A stretch of DNA of 42,850 nt. Origin: Gemmatimonadota bacterium. Lineage in GTDB: Bacteria > JAAXHH01. This document shows, in pieces, positions 5,122 through 35,162 of this stretch (its first letter is position 1; each line of letters opens with the position of its first letter). The notes beneath the pieces are model-generated. The model ran no database searches, was not told the DNA's origin, and worked only from the letters and a program-made list of their open reading frames with translations. The position numbers and the translations under genes were made by a program. The DNA is taken from NCBI GenBank assembly GCA_026706345.1, contig JAPOYX010000109.1, positions 1 through 42,850 of the forward strand. The letters are read 5' to 3'.

Positions 5122-5697
5122 TCAACCCTCGATCATACCCAGGATTTCTACCAGGCTGTCGGTCGAAGGCCGGTCGAAGGGATCCGAGCCCACGTACTTG
5201 AACCGAAGGACGCCTTCCTTGTCGATGATGAAGGCGGTGGGTATGACTTCCTCACCCTTGTCGGTCGTTTTCTGGATCTTGAACTTGGTGGGTATGGCCC
5301 GATCCGGGTCGGCGAGTACGGGGAAGGAGAGCGCTTCCCGCGTGACTTTCGACTTGGCGACGAAGTCTCTGGTCTGGTCGAGATCTTCAGGATTGATGAA
5401 GAGTAGTTCCGTGTCGAGTGCCGCTATACGTTCGTAATCGGATTGCAACTGCCCCAGTTGCCGTAAGCAAAGGGGTCACCAGTAGCCGATCCAGCCGCGG
5501 TCGACGACCACCAGCAGGTTTCTGCTGCCCTTGAAATCGGCGAAGTTGACCGTCTCGCCGTTGACGTCCTGCAGGCTGAACTCCGGTGCGGGCTGGCCCA
5601 GCCTCGGAGCCAGGTTCCTGGGCTGGGCGTCGGCGGATTCCGCCACCAGGCCGACCAGCGCCAGGGCGAAGCACCACCGCGCCAGTACACGTATCAT
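5122..5697 (-). CDS. Exported AhpC/TSA-like redoxin, predicted selenoprotein (UGA = Sec74)
   Basis: A thioredoxin-fold redoxin of 191 residues if the single in-frame TGA (5476-5478) is read as selenocysteine. Residues 1-24 are a signal peptide (MIRVLARW, a hydrophobic run, then ADA), so the protein should act outside the cytoplasm. LGQPAPEFSLQDVNGETV is the classic entry to the AhpC/TSA fold, and DRGWIGYW-U-PLCLRQLGQLQ matches the W-C-P-x-C redox site with Sec74 in place of the first Cys and C77 as resolving Cys. The frame continues intact for 117 codons after the TGA through INPEDL, FPVLADPD and VIPTAFIIDKEGVLRF, all typical of the family. A hairpin follows the TGA. The start at 5697 has AGGAGG 6 bases upstream. 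An in-frame ATG at 5724 with a duplicated Shine-Dalgarno is an alternative. A nonsense pseudogene is the other reading, and I think it less likely. Confidence 0.82.
5445..5478 (-). promoter_or_regulatory. Predicted bacterial SECIS element with its UGA codon
   Basis: On the minus strand the TGA (5478-5476) is followed by 14 bases and then a perfect 7-bp stem GCAACTG / CAGTTGC (5461-5455 and 5451-5445) closed by a GGG triloop (5454-5452). Known bacterial SECIS elements lie within the coding region just after the UGA, with an apical loop roughly 16-37 nt downstream and a G among its first loop bases. This hairpin has its loop 21 nt after the UGA. There is no bulged U as in Escherichia coli fdhF. 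A competing CCCC/GGGG pairing is possible. Confidence 0.68.
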
Positions 5698-5766
5698 GGC
5701 ATGCCTCCTCGTTTCAGAAGTCATCCTTCTCGTTTCAGCGCAATTCGCTTGCGTTTTGTTCCTTTT

Positions 5767-5795
5767 AATATAACCTACCCTGGTACGTCTGTGAA
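5767..5795 (-). promoter_or_regulatory. Sigma70-type promoter for the redoxin gene
   Basis: TTCACA (5795-5790), 17 bases, TATATT (5772-5767). Each hexamer matches consensus at five of six bases with ideal spacing. It leaves a leader of roughly 60 bases before the start at 5697. Confidence 0.5.
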
Positions 5796-5863
5796 CTTCA
5801 ATTTTAATGTTCCACATCGATATGATGGATATGGAGGAACCGCTTCCAAGGAGCCGCTTTCCC

Positions 5864-6655
5864 ATGAAACCGGGCATTACCCAACTCTGTCTCCGCCGCC
5901 AGGATCTGGAGGAGGACCTTTCCAGGGCCCGCGGCCTGGGCTACGAGGCCATCGAACTGGTATTCTCCGATGAGGGATCTCCGAATATAGACGCTTCCAC
6001 GTTGGAGATCGCAGCCGTCGGGGACGCCTGCAGAGATCACGGACTCGAACTGTGCTCCATGATCGCCATACGCCGGGATGCCGGTTCCCTGTTATCGCCG
6101 TCCGCGGACGAACGGACGAAGCGGGTTGCTATCCTTAAGCGGGGTTTTGAAATAGCCGAGATCCTGGGTGTGGACGCCCTCCTCCTGCATCCCGGAGCGC
6201 TCGATCCGGCGAGTTCCTACGGGACGACCTGGGACAACTTCCGCGACGCCCTGCGCGCCCTGGCGCCCGAGGCGGAACGGCGCGGGACACGGATCGGCAT
6301 CGAGAACGTGTGGAACCAGTTCATGCTGAGTCCCCGGGAAGCCCGGCAACTCGTGGATGAGGTCGGGTCGCCCGCCGTCGGGATCTACCTGGATACCGCC
6401 AACATGATCCTCTACGGTTACCCGGACATGTGGATCCGGGAACTGGGAAGCCGGATCTTCAAGGTGCACGTGAAGGACTTCCGGCGCGGTGAAGGCGCCT
6501 GGGTCCAGCTGATGGACGGCGACACGGACTGGCCGGCGGTCATGGCCGAATTGCGCGGCATCGATTTCGACGGGGCCCTGGTCAGCGAGGTCGGTGGCGA
6601 CGACGGCGCCATGCGGGAAACCGCCGAGCGCATCCGGCGGATCATCGCCCTGTAG
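5864..6655 (+). CDS. Sugar phosphate isomerase/epimerase-like TIM-barrel protein
   Basis: A 263-residue protein of the xylose-isomerase-like TIM-barrel superfamily (AP endonuclease family 2 fold). Four likely divalent-metal ligands fall where the family places them: E148 in IGIENVWN, D177 in IYLDTANM, H202 in KVHVKDF and E242 in LVSEVGGDD. Relatives interconvert ketoses (tagatose/psicose epimerase, hydroxypyruvate isomerase, inosose isomerase), so the substrate is open. The start is the ATG at 5864 with AAGGAG about ten bases upstream. A longer frame from 5807 adds 19 residues without homology. It is transcribed divergently from the redoxin. The nearby sugar-acid operon could use it, but it is not part of that operon. 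Confidence 0.88.
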   Translation: MKPGITQLCLRRQDLEEDLSRARGLGYEAIELVFSDEGSPNIDASTLEIAAVGDACRDHGLELCSMIAIRRDAGSLLSPSADERTKRVAILKRGFEIAEILGVDALLLHPGALDPASSYGTTWDNFRDALRALAPEAERRGTRIGIENVWNQFMLSPREARQLVDEVGSPAVGIYLDTANMILYGYPDMWIRELGSRIFKVHVKDFRRGEGAWVQLMDGDTDWPAVMAELRGIDFDGALVSEVGGDDGAMRETAERIRRIIAL

Positions 6656-27509: not shown

Positions 27510-29945
27510 CTACTCCATCCGCAGGGATTCGACCGGATTCGCGGTGGCGGCCCGCAAAGCCTGGAAGCTCACCGTCAGGAGCGCAATGGCCATGGCGATG
27601 GTTCCGGCCAGGATGAAGGTGGTCCAACCCAGGTCTACGCGATAGGCGAAGTTGTCCAGCCAGGTGCTCATCGCAAGATAGGCGACCGGCCAGGCCAGCG
27701 CGTTGGCCAGGATCACGAGCCGGACGAATTCGCTGGACAACAGCGCGATAAGACTGGAGGGAGATGCGCCAAGGACCTTGCGGACCCCGATTTCCTTCGT
27801 GCGCCGTTCCGCGGTGAAGGAGGACAGCCCGACGAGCCCGAGGCAGGCGATGATAACGGCCAGTACGGCGAAGCTTACGAAGATCCTGGCAAAACGCTCC
27901 TCGGCTTCATGCAGGCGCGCAAAGGTGTCCTCCACGAAGAAGTATTCGAAAGCCCAATCGGGATTTACTTCATGCCATGCTTCCTCGATCGCCGAAAGCC
28001 CTTCCGACATGCGACCGGCATCGATTTTGATCATGGCGTAACCGCCCGGATAGTTCGGAAACAGCACCAGCGGTTCGATGGGTTCGTATAAGGCGGCGTA
28101 GTGGAAATCCCTGACCACGCCTACGATCGACGGCCGCAATTCACCGCGCTCATCGGAATCCGTGATCAGTTCCTGCAACCCTTCGATCTCCTTGCCCAAC
28201 GCCTCGCCGGCGGATGCATAGCCAAGCCGGTCAACGGCCGCTTCGTTGACTACGACCGCACCCGTCGCCGTCCAATCGCCGGTGAACGCGGAATCGAAGT
28301 TCCGACCCGCCACCAGTTCGATGCCGAAAATCTCGATGAAATCATCGTCTACCCAGGCCTGGTACATATCAATCGTCGATGATTCGTCCTGGCCCCGTCT
28401 GCGCGCCTTGATCGGCGCCGCGGCGTTCTTGTGCCCGGGAAGAAGGAAATTCATAGAGACGTTCGTCACCGCAGGTATCTCCTTCAGCCGCGCTTTGTAA
28501 ACGCTGGATTTTACGACCACCGGCGCGAAGGTCTGAGGCACCGCGACGACCTGGTCGGAATTGAGCCCCATGTTCCGTGCGCGTATGAAATCGAGCTGGC
28601 TGTAGACCACGCCGGTGCAGATGATCAGGGCGATCGAAATCACGAACTGGCCCACGACCAGGACCCGGCGGATCGTCACGTTTCCGGCGCCCGGGGAGCG
28701 CAGGCCGCTCAGCGCCCGGACCGGTGCGAGTCCGGACAGGTAAAGGGCCGGATAGCTTCCCGAGACGAATCCCACCACGGCGCCGATCGCCACGACGGCA
28801 CCCAGGGCGAACCAGGTGGTATCGGCATCCAGGGACAGGGATTTGCCCGTGAGCAGGTTGAACCACGGCAGGCTCAGCAAGGCAAGCAGAAGGGCAACGC
28901 AGACCGCAAGCCCGGTCATGATCATGGACTCGCTGATGAACTGCCGGATCACCTGGCCCCTGGCCGCGCCGAAGGTCTTTCTCAGGCCGATTTCCGCCGC
29001 CCTTCCCGCGGACCGTGCGGTGGCCAGGTTCATAAAGTTGATACACGCGATGAGGATGATGAATACGGCGATGGCGCCGAAGAGGTAGACGTACCGGACA
29101 TCGCTGTTCGGGGCCAGCTCCCGCTCGAGATGAGAGTGGAGGTGTATATCCGTGACCGGCTGCAGCCTCAAGGTCAATGTCGAAGATTCACCGTCATATC
29201 GGTCGCCCACGTACTTCTCCACGAAGTCGGGCAGTTTGGCTTCCAGTTCACCCGGATCGCTGCCCTCGCGAAGCAGGACGTAGCTGTACGACTTGCGCCA
29301 GTCCCACACGTCGGCCGGATTGGGCGAGTAGTGCTCCTGGATCCGGAACGCCGCGAGTATGTCGAATCCGAAGTGCGTGTTGGCGGGCAGGTCCCGCATG
29401 ACGCCGGTCACCTCGAAGTGGAAGGATCCTTCGGCGTCCAGGATCTTGCCCATGGGATTCTCGTCGCCGAAGTATTTCCGGGCGATGGACTCCGACAGTA
29501 CGACTTTGTCGATACCGGCCAGGGCCGTCCGGGGATCGCCGGTTATCAGCGGCACGTCGAACACGTTGAAGACCGACGAGTCGGCCAGGTAGAAGTTCCG
29601 TTCGTAGAAACCCCGGTCCCCGTACTTGATCATCCAGGCGTTGCCGGGCGGTACGAAACGCACCATGTCTTCCACTTCGGGGAAATCCTCGCGCATGAAC
29701 TTGACCGTGGGCATCATCACTTCGGCGGTCCGGATCACCTGGTCGCGGTCCCGCTCTTCCGAGATCACGCGGTAGATGCGGTCCGCCTTCTCATGATACC
29801 GGTCGTAACTAAGCTCGTCGCGGATGTACAGAAGGATGAGGAGCGCGCACGCGATCCCGAGCGCCAGGCTCATCACGTTGATGGACGCATAGCCCTTCTG
29901 GCGATTCAGATGGCGCACGGCCACCGTCAGGTAGTTACGGAACAT
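27510..29945 (-). CDS. MacB/FtsX-type ABC permease, paralogue 1 (downstream copy)
   Basis: An 811-residue inner-membrane permease with two MacB-periplasmic-core plus FtsX units in one chain, about eight helices. TM1 is INVMSLALGIACALLILLY. A periplasmic domain follows (to about residue 280), then FtsX helices with INFMNLATARSAGRAAEIG-type sequence, a second core starting after QFVISIALIICTGVVYSQ, and a final FtsX block GLSSFTAERRTKEIGVRKVL. It ends NPVESLRME. Such chains move macrolides, lipoproteins or peptides with an ATPase partner, but none is encoded here. It is one of three tandem paralogues, and 143 bases with a 24-base repeat separate it from the next. Confidence 0.92.
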   Translation of the reverse strand: MFRNYLTVAVRHLNRQKGYASINVMSLALGIACALLILLYIRDELSYDRYHEKADRIYRVISEERDRDQVIRTAEVMMPTVKFMREDFPEVEDMVRFVPPGNAWMIKYGDRGFYERNFYLADSSVFNVFDVPLITGDPRTALAGIDKVVLSESIARKYFGDENPMGKILDAEGSFHFEVTGVMRDLPANTHFGFDILAAFRIQEHYSPNPADVWDWRKSYSYVLLREGSDPGELEAKLPDFVEKYVGDRYDGESSTLTLRLQPVTDIHLHSHLERELAPNSDVRYVYLFGAIAVFIILIACINFMNLATARSAGRAAEIGLRKTFGAARGQVIRQFISESMIMTGLAVCVALLLALLSLPWFNLLTGKSLSLDADTTWFALGAVVAIGAVVGFVSGSYPALYLSGLAPVRALSGLRSPGAGNVTIRRVLVVGQFVISIALIICTGVVYSQLDFIRARNMGLNSDQVVAVPQTFAPVVVKSSVYKARLKEIPAVTNVSMNFLLPGHKNAAAPIKARRRGQDESSTIDMYQAWVDDDFIEIFGIELVAGRNFDSAFTGDWTATGAVVVNEAAVDRLGYASAGEALGKEIEGLQELITDSDERGELRPSIVGVVRDFHYAALYEPIEPLVLFPNYPGGYAMIKIDAGRMSEGLSAIEEAWHEVNPDWAFEYFFVEDTFARLHEAEERFARIFVSFAVLAVIIACLGLVGLSSFTAERRTKEIGVRKVLGASPSSLIALLSSEFVRLVILANALAWPVAYLAMSTWLDNFAYRVDLGWTTFILAGTIAMAIALLTVSFQALRAATANPVESLRME

Positions 29946-29999
29946 GGCGCACTCGCTTTATCTGATGGGCGAAAAAACGAAAACACGCGTTCTGCCGCG

Positions 30000-30066
30000 T
30001 CCTGCGTCGGAATGGACCGCGTCACGCGTCGGGATCTACGCATCCTGCGTCGGAATGGACCGCGTC
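30000..30066. repeat. 24-bp direct repeat between permease paralogues 1 and 2
   Basis: A 24-base segment occurs at 30000-30023 and 30043-30066 (period 43), with further partial copies of a CTGCGTCGG core. It lies in the 143-base gap. No ribosome-binding site or terminator is contained in it. Confidence 0.75.
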
Positions 30067-30088
30067 CTGCGTCGGTATTTTCCGCGCC

Positions 30089-32536
30089 CTATTCGGTCCG
30101 TAGAGACTCGACGGGATTGGCGGTGGCCGCCCGCACGGCCTGGTAACTCACCGTCAGGAGGGCGAGCGCGAGGGCAAGCGCGGCGGCCAGAACGAAGGTC
30201 ATCCCGTCCAGGGCGACACGGTACGCGAAATCGTCGAGCCAACGATTCATCGCGAAATAGGCGGCTGGCCAGGCGATTACGTTGGCCACGATCACGAGCC
30301 GGACGAATTCCCCCGACATCAACCCGATCAAGTTCGGCGTGGACGCGCCAAGAACCTTGCGCACTCCGATTTCCTTCGTGCGCCGTTCCGCGGTGAAGGA
30401 GGAGAGGCCCACGAGACCAAGGCAGGCGATAAACACGGCCAGTGCGGCGAAACTGACGAAAATCCTGCCGAAGCGCTGCTCGGATTCGTAGAGACGCGCA
30501 TAAGTGTCTTCCACGAAAAAGTATTCGAAGGCGAAGTCCGGGTTCAGGTCTCTCCATGCTTCGTCGATCGCCGACAGGCCTTCCGGAAGTTGATTGGCAC
30601 TGATCTTGACGACCACGTGGCTGTCGTCGGACTCGGGAAAGAGTACCAGAGGTTCTATCGGTTCATGCAGCGAAGCGTAGTGGAAGTCTTTCACGACGCC
30701 GACGATACTGCGCGGTTCCGCGGTTTCCTCATCGAAACCGTGTCGCTCGTCAAAAACCCAGTCAAACCGACCATCCAGGGCTTCCTCGGCGGAACCGTAA
30801 CCCAGCCGGGAAACGGCGGCTTCGTTTAATATCGTCCCGCCGCCCGCTCCATACCAGTCGGCGACGTACGCGCGATCGAAGAACCTGCCGGCGGCCAGTT
30901 CCATGCCGAACGTATCGAAAAACATGTCGTCCGTCCAGGCCTGGTTCATCTCGATCTTGGCGTCATCACCTTCGCCCGATCTGCGCACAACGGCGGTGAT
31001 CACGGCGTTCTTGTGAAAAGGCAGGATAAAGGTAGCCGTGGCATCCTCCACGTGCGGACTTTCCCGCACCCGCTGCCTATATAGTCGCGCCTTTTCAATG
31101 ACCGGGGTAAACGTCAGCGGCACGGCGACGAGCCGTTCCGTGTCCATACCCAGGTTCCGGTTTCGGAGGTAGTTGAGCTGGTCGTACACGACGCCTGTGC
31201 AGATGATCAGGGCGATCGAGATCACGAACTGGCCCGCGACCAGCGTTCTGCGCATGCCCACGTTTCCGGCGTCTCCGGACAACGCGCCCTTCAGGGTATC
31301 GATCGGAGTGAGTCCGGACAGGTAAAGCGCGGGATAGCTTCCCGATATCAGCCCGACCACGATGCCGGTCACCGTCGCGGAGCCCAGGATGAACCACGCA
31401 GTATCCGCGCCCAGTGAAATGGTTTTGCCTGATACCAGGCTGAACCAGGGCAACCCGATCACCACCGACAGCACCGCGATGCATACCGCCAGGCCACTCA
31501 TGATCAGGGATTCGCTCAGGAACTGCCGCATCACCTGGCCCCGGGCCGCGCCGAAGACCCTGCGCAAACCGATTTCCCGGGCCCGGCCCGCGGATCGGGC
31601 GGTCGCCAGGTTCATGAAGTTGATGCAGGCGATGAGGATGATAAAAACGGCGATGGCGGCGAAGAGGTATACGTACCGGATGTCGCTGTTCGGCGTCAGT
31701 TCCCGCTCGAGTCGGGAATGAAGGTGGATGTCCGTCACGGGCTGCAGCCGGTAGGTCAGCGATGACGTTTCACCGTCGTGGATATCACCGACGTACTTCT
31801 CCACGAAAGCGGGCAACCTGGCTTCCAGTGCGGCCGGATCGCTTCCCTCCCTGAGCAGGACGTAGCTGTGAGACTTGCGCCAGCCCCAGTCGTCGAGCGA
31901 CTGCTCTGTAAACGCCTCCTGGATCCGGAATGACGCGAGTATGTCGAATCCGAGGTGCGTATTGGACGGCAGGTCCGCCATGACGCCGGTCACTTCAAGA
32001 TGAAAGGTCCCTTCGGCGTCCAGGATCTTCCCCATGGGATTCTCCTCGCCGAAGTATTTCCGGGCGACGGACTCGGACAGCACGACCCTGTCGTTTCCGC
32101 TCAGCGCGGTCCGGGGATTGCCTGCCAGAAGCGGGACGTCAAAGACGTTGAATACCGAAGAGTCGGCCAGGTAAAAAGACCGTTCGTTGAATCTCCTGTC
32201 GCCGTACTTGACCATCCAGGCGTTCACGGGAGGGTTGAAGCGCACCATGTCTTCCACCTCGGGGAAGTCTTGGCGCATGAACCTGGCCGTAGGCGTCATG
32301 ACTTCGGCGGACCGTATGGAACGGACAACCCCGCCGCCCTGCCGTTCCTCCGAGATCACGCGGTAGATGCGGTTCGCATTTTCGTGAAACCGGTCATAGC
32401 TCAACTCGTCCCGGATATAGAGCATGATGAGCAGGCAACACGCGATCCCGAGCGCCAGGCTCATCACGTTGATGAACGAGTAACCCTTCCTGCGACTCAG
32501 ATGCCGGACGGCAACCGTGAAGTAGTTTCTGAACAT
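30089..32536 (-). CDS. MacB/FtsX-type ABC permease, paralogue 2 (middle copy)
   Basis: An 815-residue permease with the same order of parts as its neighbours: TM1 with INVMSLALGIACCLLIMLYI, a periplasmic core, a first FtsX block (NLATARSAGRAREIGLRRVF), a second core after QFVISIALIICTGVVYDQ and a final FtsX block GLSSFTAERRTKEIGVRKVL. It is highly similar to both flanking copies (many long identical stretches by eye), so the array arose by tandem duplication. It starts at the ATG at 32536, 41 bases after the stop of paralogue 3. No ATPase or membrane-fusion gene is adjacent. Confidence 0.92.
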   Translation of the reverse strand: MFRNYFTVAVRHLSRRKGYSFINVMSLALGIACCLLIMLYIRDELSYDRFHENANRIYRVISEERQGGGVVRSIRSAEVMTPTARFMRQDFPEVEDMVRFNPPVNAWMVKYGDRRFNERSFYLADSSVFNVFDVPLLAGNPRTALSGNDRVVLSESVARKYFGEENPMGKILDAEGTFHLEVTGVMADLPSNTHLGFDILASFRIQEAFTEQSLDDWGWRKSHSYVLLREGSDPAALEARLPAFVEKYVGDIHDGETSSLTYRLQPVTDIHLHSRLERELTPNSDIRYVYLFAAIAVFIILIACINFMNLATARSAGRAREIGLRRVFGAARGQVMRQFLSESLIMSGLAVCIAVLSVVIGLPWFSLVSGKTISLGADTAWFILGSATVTGIVVGLISGSYPALYLSGLTPIDTLKGALSGDAGNVGMRRTLVAGQFVISIALIICTGVVYDQLNYLRNRNLGMDTERLVAVPLTFTPVIEKARLYRQRVRESPHVEDATATFILPFHKNAVITAVVRRSGEGDDAKIEMNQAWTDDMFFDTFGMELAAGRFFDRAYVADWYGAGGGTILNEAAVSRLGYGSAEEALDGRFDWVFDERHGFDEETAEPRSIVGVVKDFHYASLHEPIEPLVLFPESDDSHVVVKISANQLPEGLSAIDEAWRDLNPDFAFEYFFVEDTYARLYESEQRFGRIFVSFAALAVFIACLGLVGLSSFTAERRTKEIGVRKVLGASTPNLIGLMSGEFVRLVIVANVIAWPAAYFAMNRWLDDFAYRVALDGMTFVLAAALALALALLTVSYQAVRAATANPVESLRTE

Positions 32537-32577
32537 GGAAAAATGATACCGTGTCTACAACGGACGAGAGATGCGAT

Positions 32578-35022
32578 CTACTCGGCCCGCAAAGACTCCA
32601 CCGGATTGGCCGTGGAGGCCCGGACGGCCTGGTAACTAACGGTCAGGAGGGCGATCGCCATGGCGAGAATGCCAGCCAGAATGAAGGTTGCCCAACCCAG
32701 GTCGACGCGGTAGGCGAAGTTGTCCAGCCATCTGTTCATTACCAGGTAGGCGGCCGGCCAGGCGAAAACGTTGGCCACGATCACGAGACGGACGTATTCG
32801 TTGGACAGCAGGCGAAACAGGTTCGGAATGGAGGCGCCCAGGACCTTGCGGACCCCGATTTCCTTCGTGCGCCGTTCCGCGGTGAAGGAGGAGAGGCCGA
32901 CGAGACCGAGGCAGGCGATGAGCACGGCCAGGGCGGCAAAGCTTACGAATATCCTGCCGAAGCGCTGTTCGGCCTCATACAAGCGCCCGAAGATGTCTTC
33001 CACGAAGAAATACTCGAAGGCAAACTCCGGGTTTACTTCCTGCCATACGTCTTCGATCACTGCAAGGCCTTCAGACAGGGATTCCGACTTGATCTTGATG
33101 ACGACGTGACCACCCTGGTAGTCGGCGAACATGACCAACGGTCCTATAGGTTGGTGCAAAGACGTGTAGTGAAAGTCCTTCACAACGCCGACGATCCTGC
33201 GCAGTTGCTTTTCTTCCTCTTCCCACCCCTGCCGCAGTTCCCGCACCCAGTTCACTTCCTTGCCCAGGGCTTCATCCGGTGAATCGTATCCCAGCCTGCT
33301 TACGGCCGCTTCGTTCAATATCGCAGCGCCCCCCGCCGTCTGCCATCCCCAGTCGCTGACGAAGGAGGGGTCGAAGTACCTGCCCGTGACGAGCTCAATG
33401 CCCAACGTCTCCACAAAGTCTTCATCCGTCCAGGCCTGGCTCATATCGATTTTCTCGAATTCGCTTTCGCCCGTCCGCTGCAACGTGATGGGTATCACGG
33501 CGTTCTTGTGACCGGGAAGGATGTACGTGGAGGTAGCGTTAGTAATGTACGGACTTTCCTTCACGCGTTGCTTGTAAATCCTCGCCGTTTCCTGGACCGG
33601 GTCGAAAGTCAGGGGGACGGCCACGACCATGTCCGTGTTCAACCCCATGTTTCTCTTGCGGATGAAATCCATCTGGCTGTAAACCACACCGGTACATAGG
33701 TTCAGTTCTGGCGAAGGGACGAACTGGCTTACGACCAGCACCCGGCGCATACCGGCCGTGCCGGAACCGGATGCGAGCGTTCCCTTGAGCGTCTCGATCG
33801 GCGCCAGTCCAGCCAGGTAAAACGCGGGATAGCTGCCCGACACGCACCCGACTACGACACCGATGGCCACCGCGGCGCCCAGGGCGAACAAGACGGTCCC
33901 CGAATCCAGGAACATGGTCTTGCCCGTAAGCAGATTGAACCACGGCAGACTGATCCACGCCAGAAGCAAAGCGAGGCACACGGCCATTCCGCTCATCAGC
34001 AATGATTCGACGAGGAACTGCCGCGCCATCTGGATGCGGACCGCGCCGAATACCTTTCGGAGGCCGATTTCCCTGGCCCTGCCCGCGGATCGGGCGGTCG
34101 CCAGGTTCATGAAGTTGATGCAGGCGATGACGATGATGAATACCGCGATAGCGGTGAAAAGATAAATGTATCTGATATCGCTGTTGGGCGTCAGTTCCCG
34201 TTCCAGGCGCGAATGAAGATGGATATCCGTTACAGGCTGCAGCCTGTATGTGAGTGAGGCTTCGCCGCTTTCGTAGCGGTTTCCGAGGTGTTTTTCCACG
34301 AAAGCGGGCAGCTTGGCTTCCAGCTCCGCCGGGTCGCTTCCTTCCCGGAGCACGATGTAACTGTGGGCCGTGCGCCAGCCCCACTCGTCGACCTTGTTGT
34401 AGGAGTAGGCTTCCTGGATCTTGAAGGACGCGAGTATGTCGAACCCGAGGTGGGTATTGGAGGGCAGGTCCGGCATAATGCCGGTCACTTCGAGGTGAAA
34501 AGTCCCTTCGGAGTCCAGGATCTTCCCCATGGGGTTCTCATCGCCGAAGTATTTTCTGGCAATGGACTCGGACAGCACGATCTTGTCGTTTCCGGTCAGC
34601 GCCGTCCTGGGATTGCCCGTCAGCAGGGGGACCTGGAACACGTCGAAAACCGTCGTGTCGGCCAGGTAGAAATTCCGTTCGTAGAACCCCTTGTCTCCGT
34701 ACTTGACCATCCAGGCGTTACCGGGCGGGACGAGGCGAACCATATCCTCGATTTCCGGGAAATCCTGGCGCATGTACCAGACCGTGGGTATCAGGACATC
34801 GGCGGTACGAACGACCTCGCCTCCCTGCCTTTGTTCGGCCGTTACGCGGTATGTTCGGTCCGCGCGGTCGTAATAACGGTCATAACTCAGCTCGTCCCGG
34901 ATGTAGAGCAGGATGAGCAGGCAGCACGCGATCCCGAGCGCCAGGCTCATGACATTGATGAACGAATAGCCCTTCTGGCGGTTCAGGTGGCGGATTGCCA
35001 CGGTAATGTAGTTTCGAAACAC
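32578..35022 (-). CDS. MacB/FtsX-type ABC permease, paralogue 3 (first gene of array)
   Basis: An 814-residue permease, first in transcription order of the three. I start it at the GTG at 35022 (VFRNYITVAIRHLNRQKGY), which aligns with the ATG starts of the other two and has GAGGG 5 bases upstream. An ATG 27 codons earlier lacks support. Domain order is as in its paralogues. One oddity: the helix that reads QFVISIALIICTGV in the other two copies reads QFVPSPELNLCTGV here, with two prolines, a Glu and an Asn in a membrane segment. The final block GLSSFTAERRTKEIGVRKVL is intact. Possible function is as for the other copies. Confidence 0.9.
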   Translation of the reverse strand: MFRNYITVAIRHLNRQKGYSFINVMSLALGIACCLLILLYIRDELSYDRYYDRADRTYRVTAEQRQGGEVVRTADVLIPTVWYMRQDFPEIEDMVRLVPPGNAWMVKYGDKGFYERNFYLADTTVFDVFQVPLLTGNPRTALTGNDKIVLSESIARKYFGDENPMGKILDSEGTFHLEVTGIMPDLPSNTHLGFDILASFKIQEAYSYNKVDEWGWRTAHSYIVLREGSDPAELEAKLPAFVEKHLGNRYESGEASLTYRLQPVTDIHLHSRLERELTPNSDIRYIYLFTAIAVFIIVIACINFMNLATARSAGRAREIGLRKVFGAVRIQMARQFLVESLLMSGMAVCLALLLAWISLPWFNLLTGKTMFLDSGTVLFALGAAVAIGVVVGCVSGSYPAFYLAGLAPIETLKGTLASGSGTAGMRRVLVVSQFVPSPELNLCTGVVYSQMDFIRKRNMGLNTDMVVAVPLTFDPVQETARIYKQRVKESPYITNATSTYILPGHKNAVIPITLQRTGESEFEKIDMSQAWTDEDFVETLGIELVTGRYFDPSFVSDWGWQTAGGAAILNEAAVSRLGYDSPDEALGKEVNWVRELRQGWEEEEKQLRRIVGVVKDFHYTSLHQPIGPLVMFADYQGGHVVIKIKSESLSEGLAVIEDVWQEVNPEFAFEYFFVEDIFGRLYEAEQRFGRIFVSFAALAVLIACLGLVGLSSFTAERRTKEIGVRKVLGASIPNLFRLLSNEYVRLVIVANVFAWPAAYLVMNRWLDNFAYRVDLGWATFILAGILAMAIALLTVSYQAVRASTANPVESLRAE

Positions 35023-35162
35023 AGCGCCCTCTAAGTCGATATGCCTGTCAGGGATGCCAGGTTGGTCTACCAGTCTTATGAAGACCGCATAAGACGGCCC
35101 CATATTCCACCGTCAGGGATGCACCGGCCCTTGATTCAATATCATTCGTGGCAATACTTCTG

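Follow-up and report, generated by a model that had tools for sequence, protein, structure and literature searches.

Identification of a candidate selenoprotein gene

The in-frame UGA at codon 74 of a peroxiredoxin (Prx)-like gene in the 42,850-nucleotide stretch of DNA analyzed here (the window) is very probably decoded as selenocysteine, which would make this a real bacterial selenoprotein gene (we place the probability at roughly 0.95). Conservation of the UGA, conservation of a hairpin, and a complete set of selenocysteine-insertion genes support this interpretation, which a first-pass annotation based on the sequence alone had also reached. That annotation correctly placed the gene at positions 5122–5697 without naming a strand; the gene lies on the minus strand, and stops interrupt the same-frame reading on the plus strand of this interval. 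With TGA translated as selenocysteine (U), the reading runs from 5697 to 5122 (M1...W73-U74-P75-L76-C77...G191, then a TGA stop), the coding part spanning 5697 to 5125; the resulting protein is MIRVLARWCFALALVGLVAESADAQ...RGWIGYW-U-PLCLRQLGQLQ...EILGMIEG. The earlier count of 117 codons after the internal TGA holds on this translation. The features of the locus are listed below.

5122–5697, minus strand: probable exported Prx-like selenoprotein gene, 191 amino acids plus a TGA stop (5124–5122), from translation with TGA as U, Pfam, and dN/dS
5476–5478, minus strand: in-frame TGA, putative selenocysteine codon 74 in W-U-P-L-C, the same codon being TGA in relatives
5445–5461, minus strand: candidate bSECIS hairpin GCAACUG-GGG-CAGUUGC, 7 bp with loop GGG, from folding, covariation, and synonymous invariance
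5623–5697, minus strand: probable Sec/SPI signal peptide, about MIRVLARWCFALALVGLVAESADA with Q following, by inspection
5706–5712, minus strand: ribosome-binding site GAGGAGG, upstream of the ATG at 5697, from the sequence
5767–5795, minus strand: possible sigma-70-like promoter TTCACA-17-TATATT, from a consensus scan

The promoter call is weak, since the consensus scan found one site against 0.4 expected. The sequence joined across the TGA matches the Pfam AhpC-TSA model well above its cut-off (87 bits; cut-off 26) and Redoxin at 73.8 bits, and contains a U-x-x-C motif (U74-P-L-C77). By eye, the N-terminus shows a basic n-region, a hydrophobic core, and A-D-A before Q; a similar N-terminus occurs in loci L034–L036, and the signal peptide of the first-pass annotation is visible by inspection throughout the genus and in three relatives from the same order (G012, G014, and G015). 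The signal-peptide region evolves faster than the rest (dN/dS 0.25). Export of the selenoprotein thus appears likely from its N-terminal sequence.

Conservation and selection around the UGA

An open frame around a TGA is not in itself significant here, because a simple count finds 42 TGA codons within the GC-rich 42.9-kb window that are preceded by at least 60 and followed by at least 100 open codons. What sets codon 74 beyond chance is the combination of two-sided homology, position at the first Cys of CxxC, conservation of the TGA, dN/dS, and the conserved hairpin. Within the genus, the codon is TGA in the window gene and in all 11 relatives (12 loci); the same holds for G012, of the same family, and for G014 and G015, of the same order, which together stand for three further genera of that order at 47–52% identity. 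The TGA form also occurs in six loci of five distant genomes (G054, G060, G063 with two copies, G251, and G331) at approximately 29–39% identity. Across the 384 genomes searched, the sole stop-free match was in G287, with the motif R-G-F-G-G-T-I-C-P-Y-C. The gene had no match in G013, of the same family, though SelB is present there; a plasmid search recovered distant relatives only (26–33%), and the phylum-wide search around G063 covered a single genome. The comparison at residue 74 that the first-pass annotation had suggested finds TGA in close homologs and Cys in ResA/TlpA-type and CPYC relatives; as it had also claimed, the TGA stands at the first Cys of CxxC, U74 aligning with that residue of ResA/TlpA proteins.

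Purifying selection after the TGA is the same as before it: in the genus comparison, codons 75–189 have a dN/dS of 0.095 and codons 26–73 one of 0.114. The two other sense frames give values above 2, and one antisense frame gives 0.205; the latter is presumably the one in which wobble positions face those of the sense frame.

A conserved bSECIS-like hairpin

The tight hairpin reported after the TGA in the first-pass annotation is borne out, and fits the published bSECIS model, which specifies a stem of 4–16 bp, a loop of 3–9 nt with G in the first two positions, a UGA-to-loop distance of 16–37 nt, and an MFE of −7.5 or lower (PMC13188914). The observed hairpin agrees on every count, with a 7-bp stem beginning 14 nt after the UGA, a GGG loop beginning 21 nt after it, and −8.8 kcal/mol (z −3.9) for the hairpin alone. 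Measured by the MFE of the 48 nt that start at the UGA, the window hairpin could not be told apart from synonymously resampled sequences; the case for a bSECIS element therefore rests on the specific helix, its covariation, and synonymous invariance. An alignment of ten sequences, drawn from nine genomes, has the helix paired in 94.3% of cells and double changes at three pairs; helix covariation is 0.302 against 0.101 for shuffled alignments, with 0 of 500 shuffles reaching the helix score. Versions of the helix slid along the alignment are at most 47% paired, and RNAalifold predicts the same helix and nothing else. The clearest compensatory change involves the top pair: Gln at residue 83 (CAG) occurs with Leu CTG, and Glu (GAG) with Leu CTC.

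The hairpin overlaps codons 75–85, which are invariant in 11 genus sequences, without synonymous change, whereas 92 of 160 degenerate codons vary; no other unchanged run of degenerate codons is as long (permutation p 0.002). The hairpin nonetheless sits in Q-L-G-Q-L codons, which favor pairing anyway: synonymous-codon resampling matches the hairpin pairing in approximately 2–20% of cases per sequence. The control with Cys homologs comprised one usable sequence. When the whole stretch beginning at the UGA is folded, a different structure is favored (−12.3 kcal/mol), the base of which a ribosome positioned at the UGA would be expected to melt.

Selenocysteine-insertion genes in the host genome

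The host genome (4.49 Mb, 98% complete, 4.6% contamination) contains all four genes that the first-pass annotation had proposed to look for, and this complete set supports its view that the organism decodes selenocysteine. The tRNA-Sec (anticodon UCA, 70.6 bits) follows the selB match (334 bits) on the same contig at a distance of 132 nt, while selA (445 bits) and selD (257 bits) are found elsewhere in the genome. Of the 20 genomes carrying the TGA form, 18 have a SelB that scores above its curated cut-off; the exceptions are G010 (87% complete) and G015 (85% complete). G287, the genome of the CPYC relative, has no SelB reaching that score.

The host SelD (L019, G000:C171) is encoded as a fusion, in a 746-aa frame whose N-terminal domain is oxidoreductase-like; the SelD active site carries Cys instead of selenocysteine. 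Fusions of Ndh and SelD with a CxxC motif are already known (PMC2398784).

Fold, proposed chemistry, and alternative interpretations

Sequence and predicted fold point to different relatives. The best PDB sequence matches are ResA/TlpA-type thioredoxins, whose first CxxC Cys aligns with U74; in peroxiredoxins of Streptomyces and others, the Thr of TxxC aligns with U74 and the peroxidatic Cys with C77. The AlphaFold2 model (pLDDT 82.8, with low confidence at residues 7–27) has Bcp/AhpC/AhpE peroxiredoxins as its nearest solved folds. Together, these matches describe a Prx-like UxxC redoxin intermediate between ResA/TlpA proteins and peroxiredoxins. Of the PxxxTxxC motif that surrounds the peroxidatic Cys in canonical peroxiredoxins, I70...U74-P-L-C77 retains the Cys alone.

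In the proposed mechanism, SelB and the Sec-tRNA(UCA) would bind the 7-bp hairpin and outcompete termination at UGA-74, and the product would leave the cytoplasm through the Sec pathway. The selenolate of Sec74 would then be the attacking nucleophile of the U-x-x-C pair on an oxidized substrate, yielding a selenenic acid or a mixed selenosulfide; Cys77 would resolve this intermediate to form a Se–S bond, which an extracytoplasmic thiol donor would reduce. Fold and motif make this division of labor between Sec74 and Cys77 probable. On the same grounds, the likeliest substrate is a peroxide or a protein disulfide, with even odds for either alone.

It is almost an even proposition that the protein, as a real selenoprotein, serves solely as a thioredoxin/ResA-like disulfide reductase without reducing peroxides; this would refine the main interpretation rather than exclude it. 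Consistent with such a role, the closest sequence matches among solved structures are CxxC thioredoxins, UxxC stands where these have CxxC, PxxxTxxC is lacking, and Pro153, preceding a Thr, aligns at the cis-Pro place of the thioredoxin fold, a role that it presumably shares. However, AhpC-TSA is the best Pfam model, the predicted fold lies nearest to peroxiredoxins, and Cys77 aligns with their peroxidatic Cys.

It is very improbable that the UGA is instead read as another amino acid, through a code change or suppressor tRNA, or that the two halves are produced as separate proteins through a translational restart. UGA encodes Trp in some lineages, and an open reading frame with a TTG start does begin at 5448. 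However, UGA still serves as a stop, since it terminates the window gene and some relatives at a position where others carry TAA or TAG; the genome has a complete selenocysteine system; position 74 is the redox Cys of homologs; and a restarted product would be without the active-site residues and first strands. Both possibilities were rejected on these grounds. Least probable of all, and also rejected, is a nonsense mutation or sequencing error that split an ordinary Cys redoxin and left its downstream half to decay: a single third-position base does separate TGA from TGC or TGT, and long open frames flanking a TGA are common in the window, but the TGA is shared by 12 separately assembled genus loci and by lineages only 30–50% identical, and the downstream frame, with its dN/dS of 0.095, is likewise conserved.

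Relationship to known selenoprotein families

With selenocysteine at codon 74, the window protein is of a kind already known. Prx-like thiol:disulfide oxidoreductase selenoproteins (PF00578, UxxC/UxxU) have been tabulated (PMC9312934 Table 1; PMC13188914 Table 1) and are common in marine metagenomes, as 'Prx-like 1' of the GOS survey (PMC2398784). The window protein shares with them the Pfam domain, UxxC, a bSECIS element right after the UGA, and the existence of Cys homologs; it differs in the RGW-x-GYW before U, in its probable export, and in its Latescibacterota lineage. Compared with RGW-x-GYW, the stretch before U is three residues shorter in the G054 and G060 members, which have RG-x-x-U-P. 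The best NCBIfam match is the SelL-related redox protein (NF040769; 62.9 bits, residues 35–145 aligned), but this lies below the curated cut-off of 120 bits, and the window protein has UxxC, whereas SelL carries UxxU. Like ResA/TlpA thiol-disulfide oxidoreductases, the window protein has a thioredoxin fold, probable export, and UxxC in the place of CxxC, and these are its best PDB sequence matches; unlike ResA (NF002854), it scores 48.2 bits against a cut-off of 170, and its predicted fold is nearer to peroxiredoxins. It resembles PrxU (TxxU) in its AhpC-TSA fold and active-site selenocysteine, but its selenocysteine lies three residues earlier, and Cys77 rather than selenocysteine occupies the peroxidatic position.

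What is new is only the probably exported RGW-x-GYW-U-P-x-C sub-clade and its lineage; the gene reveals no new mechanism. We regard as doubtful the broader proposition that this motif marks a distinct, undescribed redoxin sub-clade, with selenocysteine in every member seen, working outside the cytoplasm and tying the lineage's use of selenium to envelope redox defense. A literature search for selenoproteins in Latescibacterota or sponge symbionts found no relevant report, and the gene adds a well-supported, probably exported selenoprotein to this candidate phylum. Standard annotation would split or truncate it, losing the active site across the whole lineage.

Gene neighborhood and additional observations

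The neighboring genes encode a Cys/Met-metabolism PLP enzyme, a phosphotransferase, a TIM-barrel isomerase-like protein, and a transglycosylase, none with a functional link to selenium. A divergent xylose-isomerase-like TIM-barrel gene (5807–6655) adjoins the selenoprotein gene in seven genus loci and in G015.

Other redoxin genes were recovered beyond the window. A second TGA-interrupted AhpC-TSA protein in the host genome (L128; G000:C217:2248–2622, minus strand) carries a signal-like stretch at its N-terminus together with D-F-T-P-G-U-T, the motif of a TxxU peroxiredoxin of the PrxU/Bcp kind, and is probably another selenoprotein. The distant UPFC relative in G054 (L040/L155; G054:C101:3462–3905) makes up the C-terminal portion of a probable lipoprotein of 374 aa that has repeat-like domains upstream, and a second redoxin-like match lies ~1 kb downstream. 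G063 encodes a Prx-like protein with UGDC (L041/L156; G063:C31) alongside a UPYC paralog, both with the same hairpin. Elsewhere in the window, positions 27510–35103 encode three consecutive similar proteins of ~810–840 aa, probably tandem MacB/FtsX-like permeases, that have in common FRNYxTVAxRHLxRxKGYxxINVMSLALGIAC near the N-terminus.
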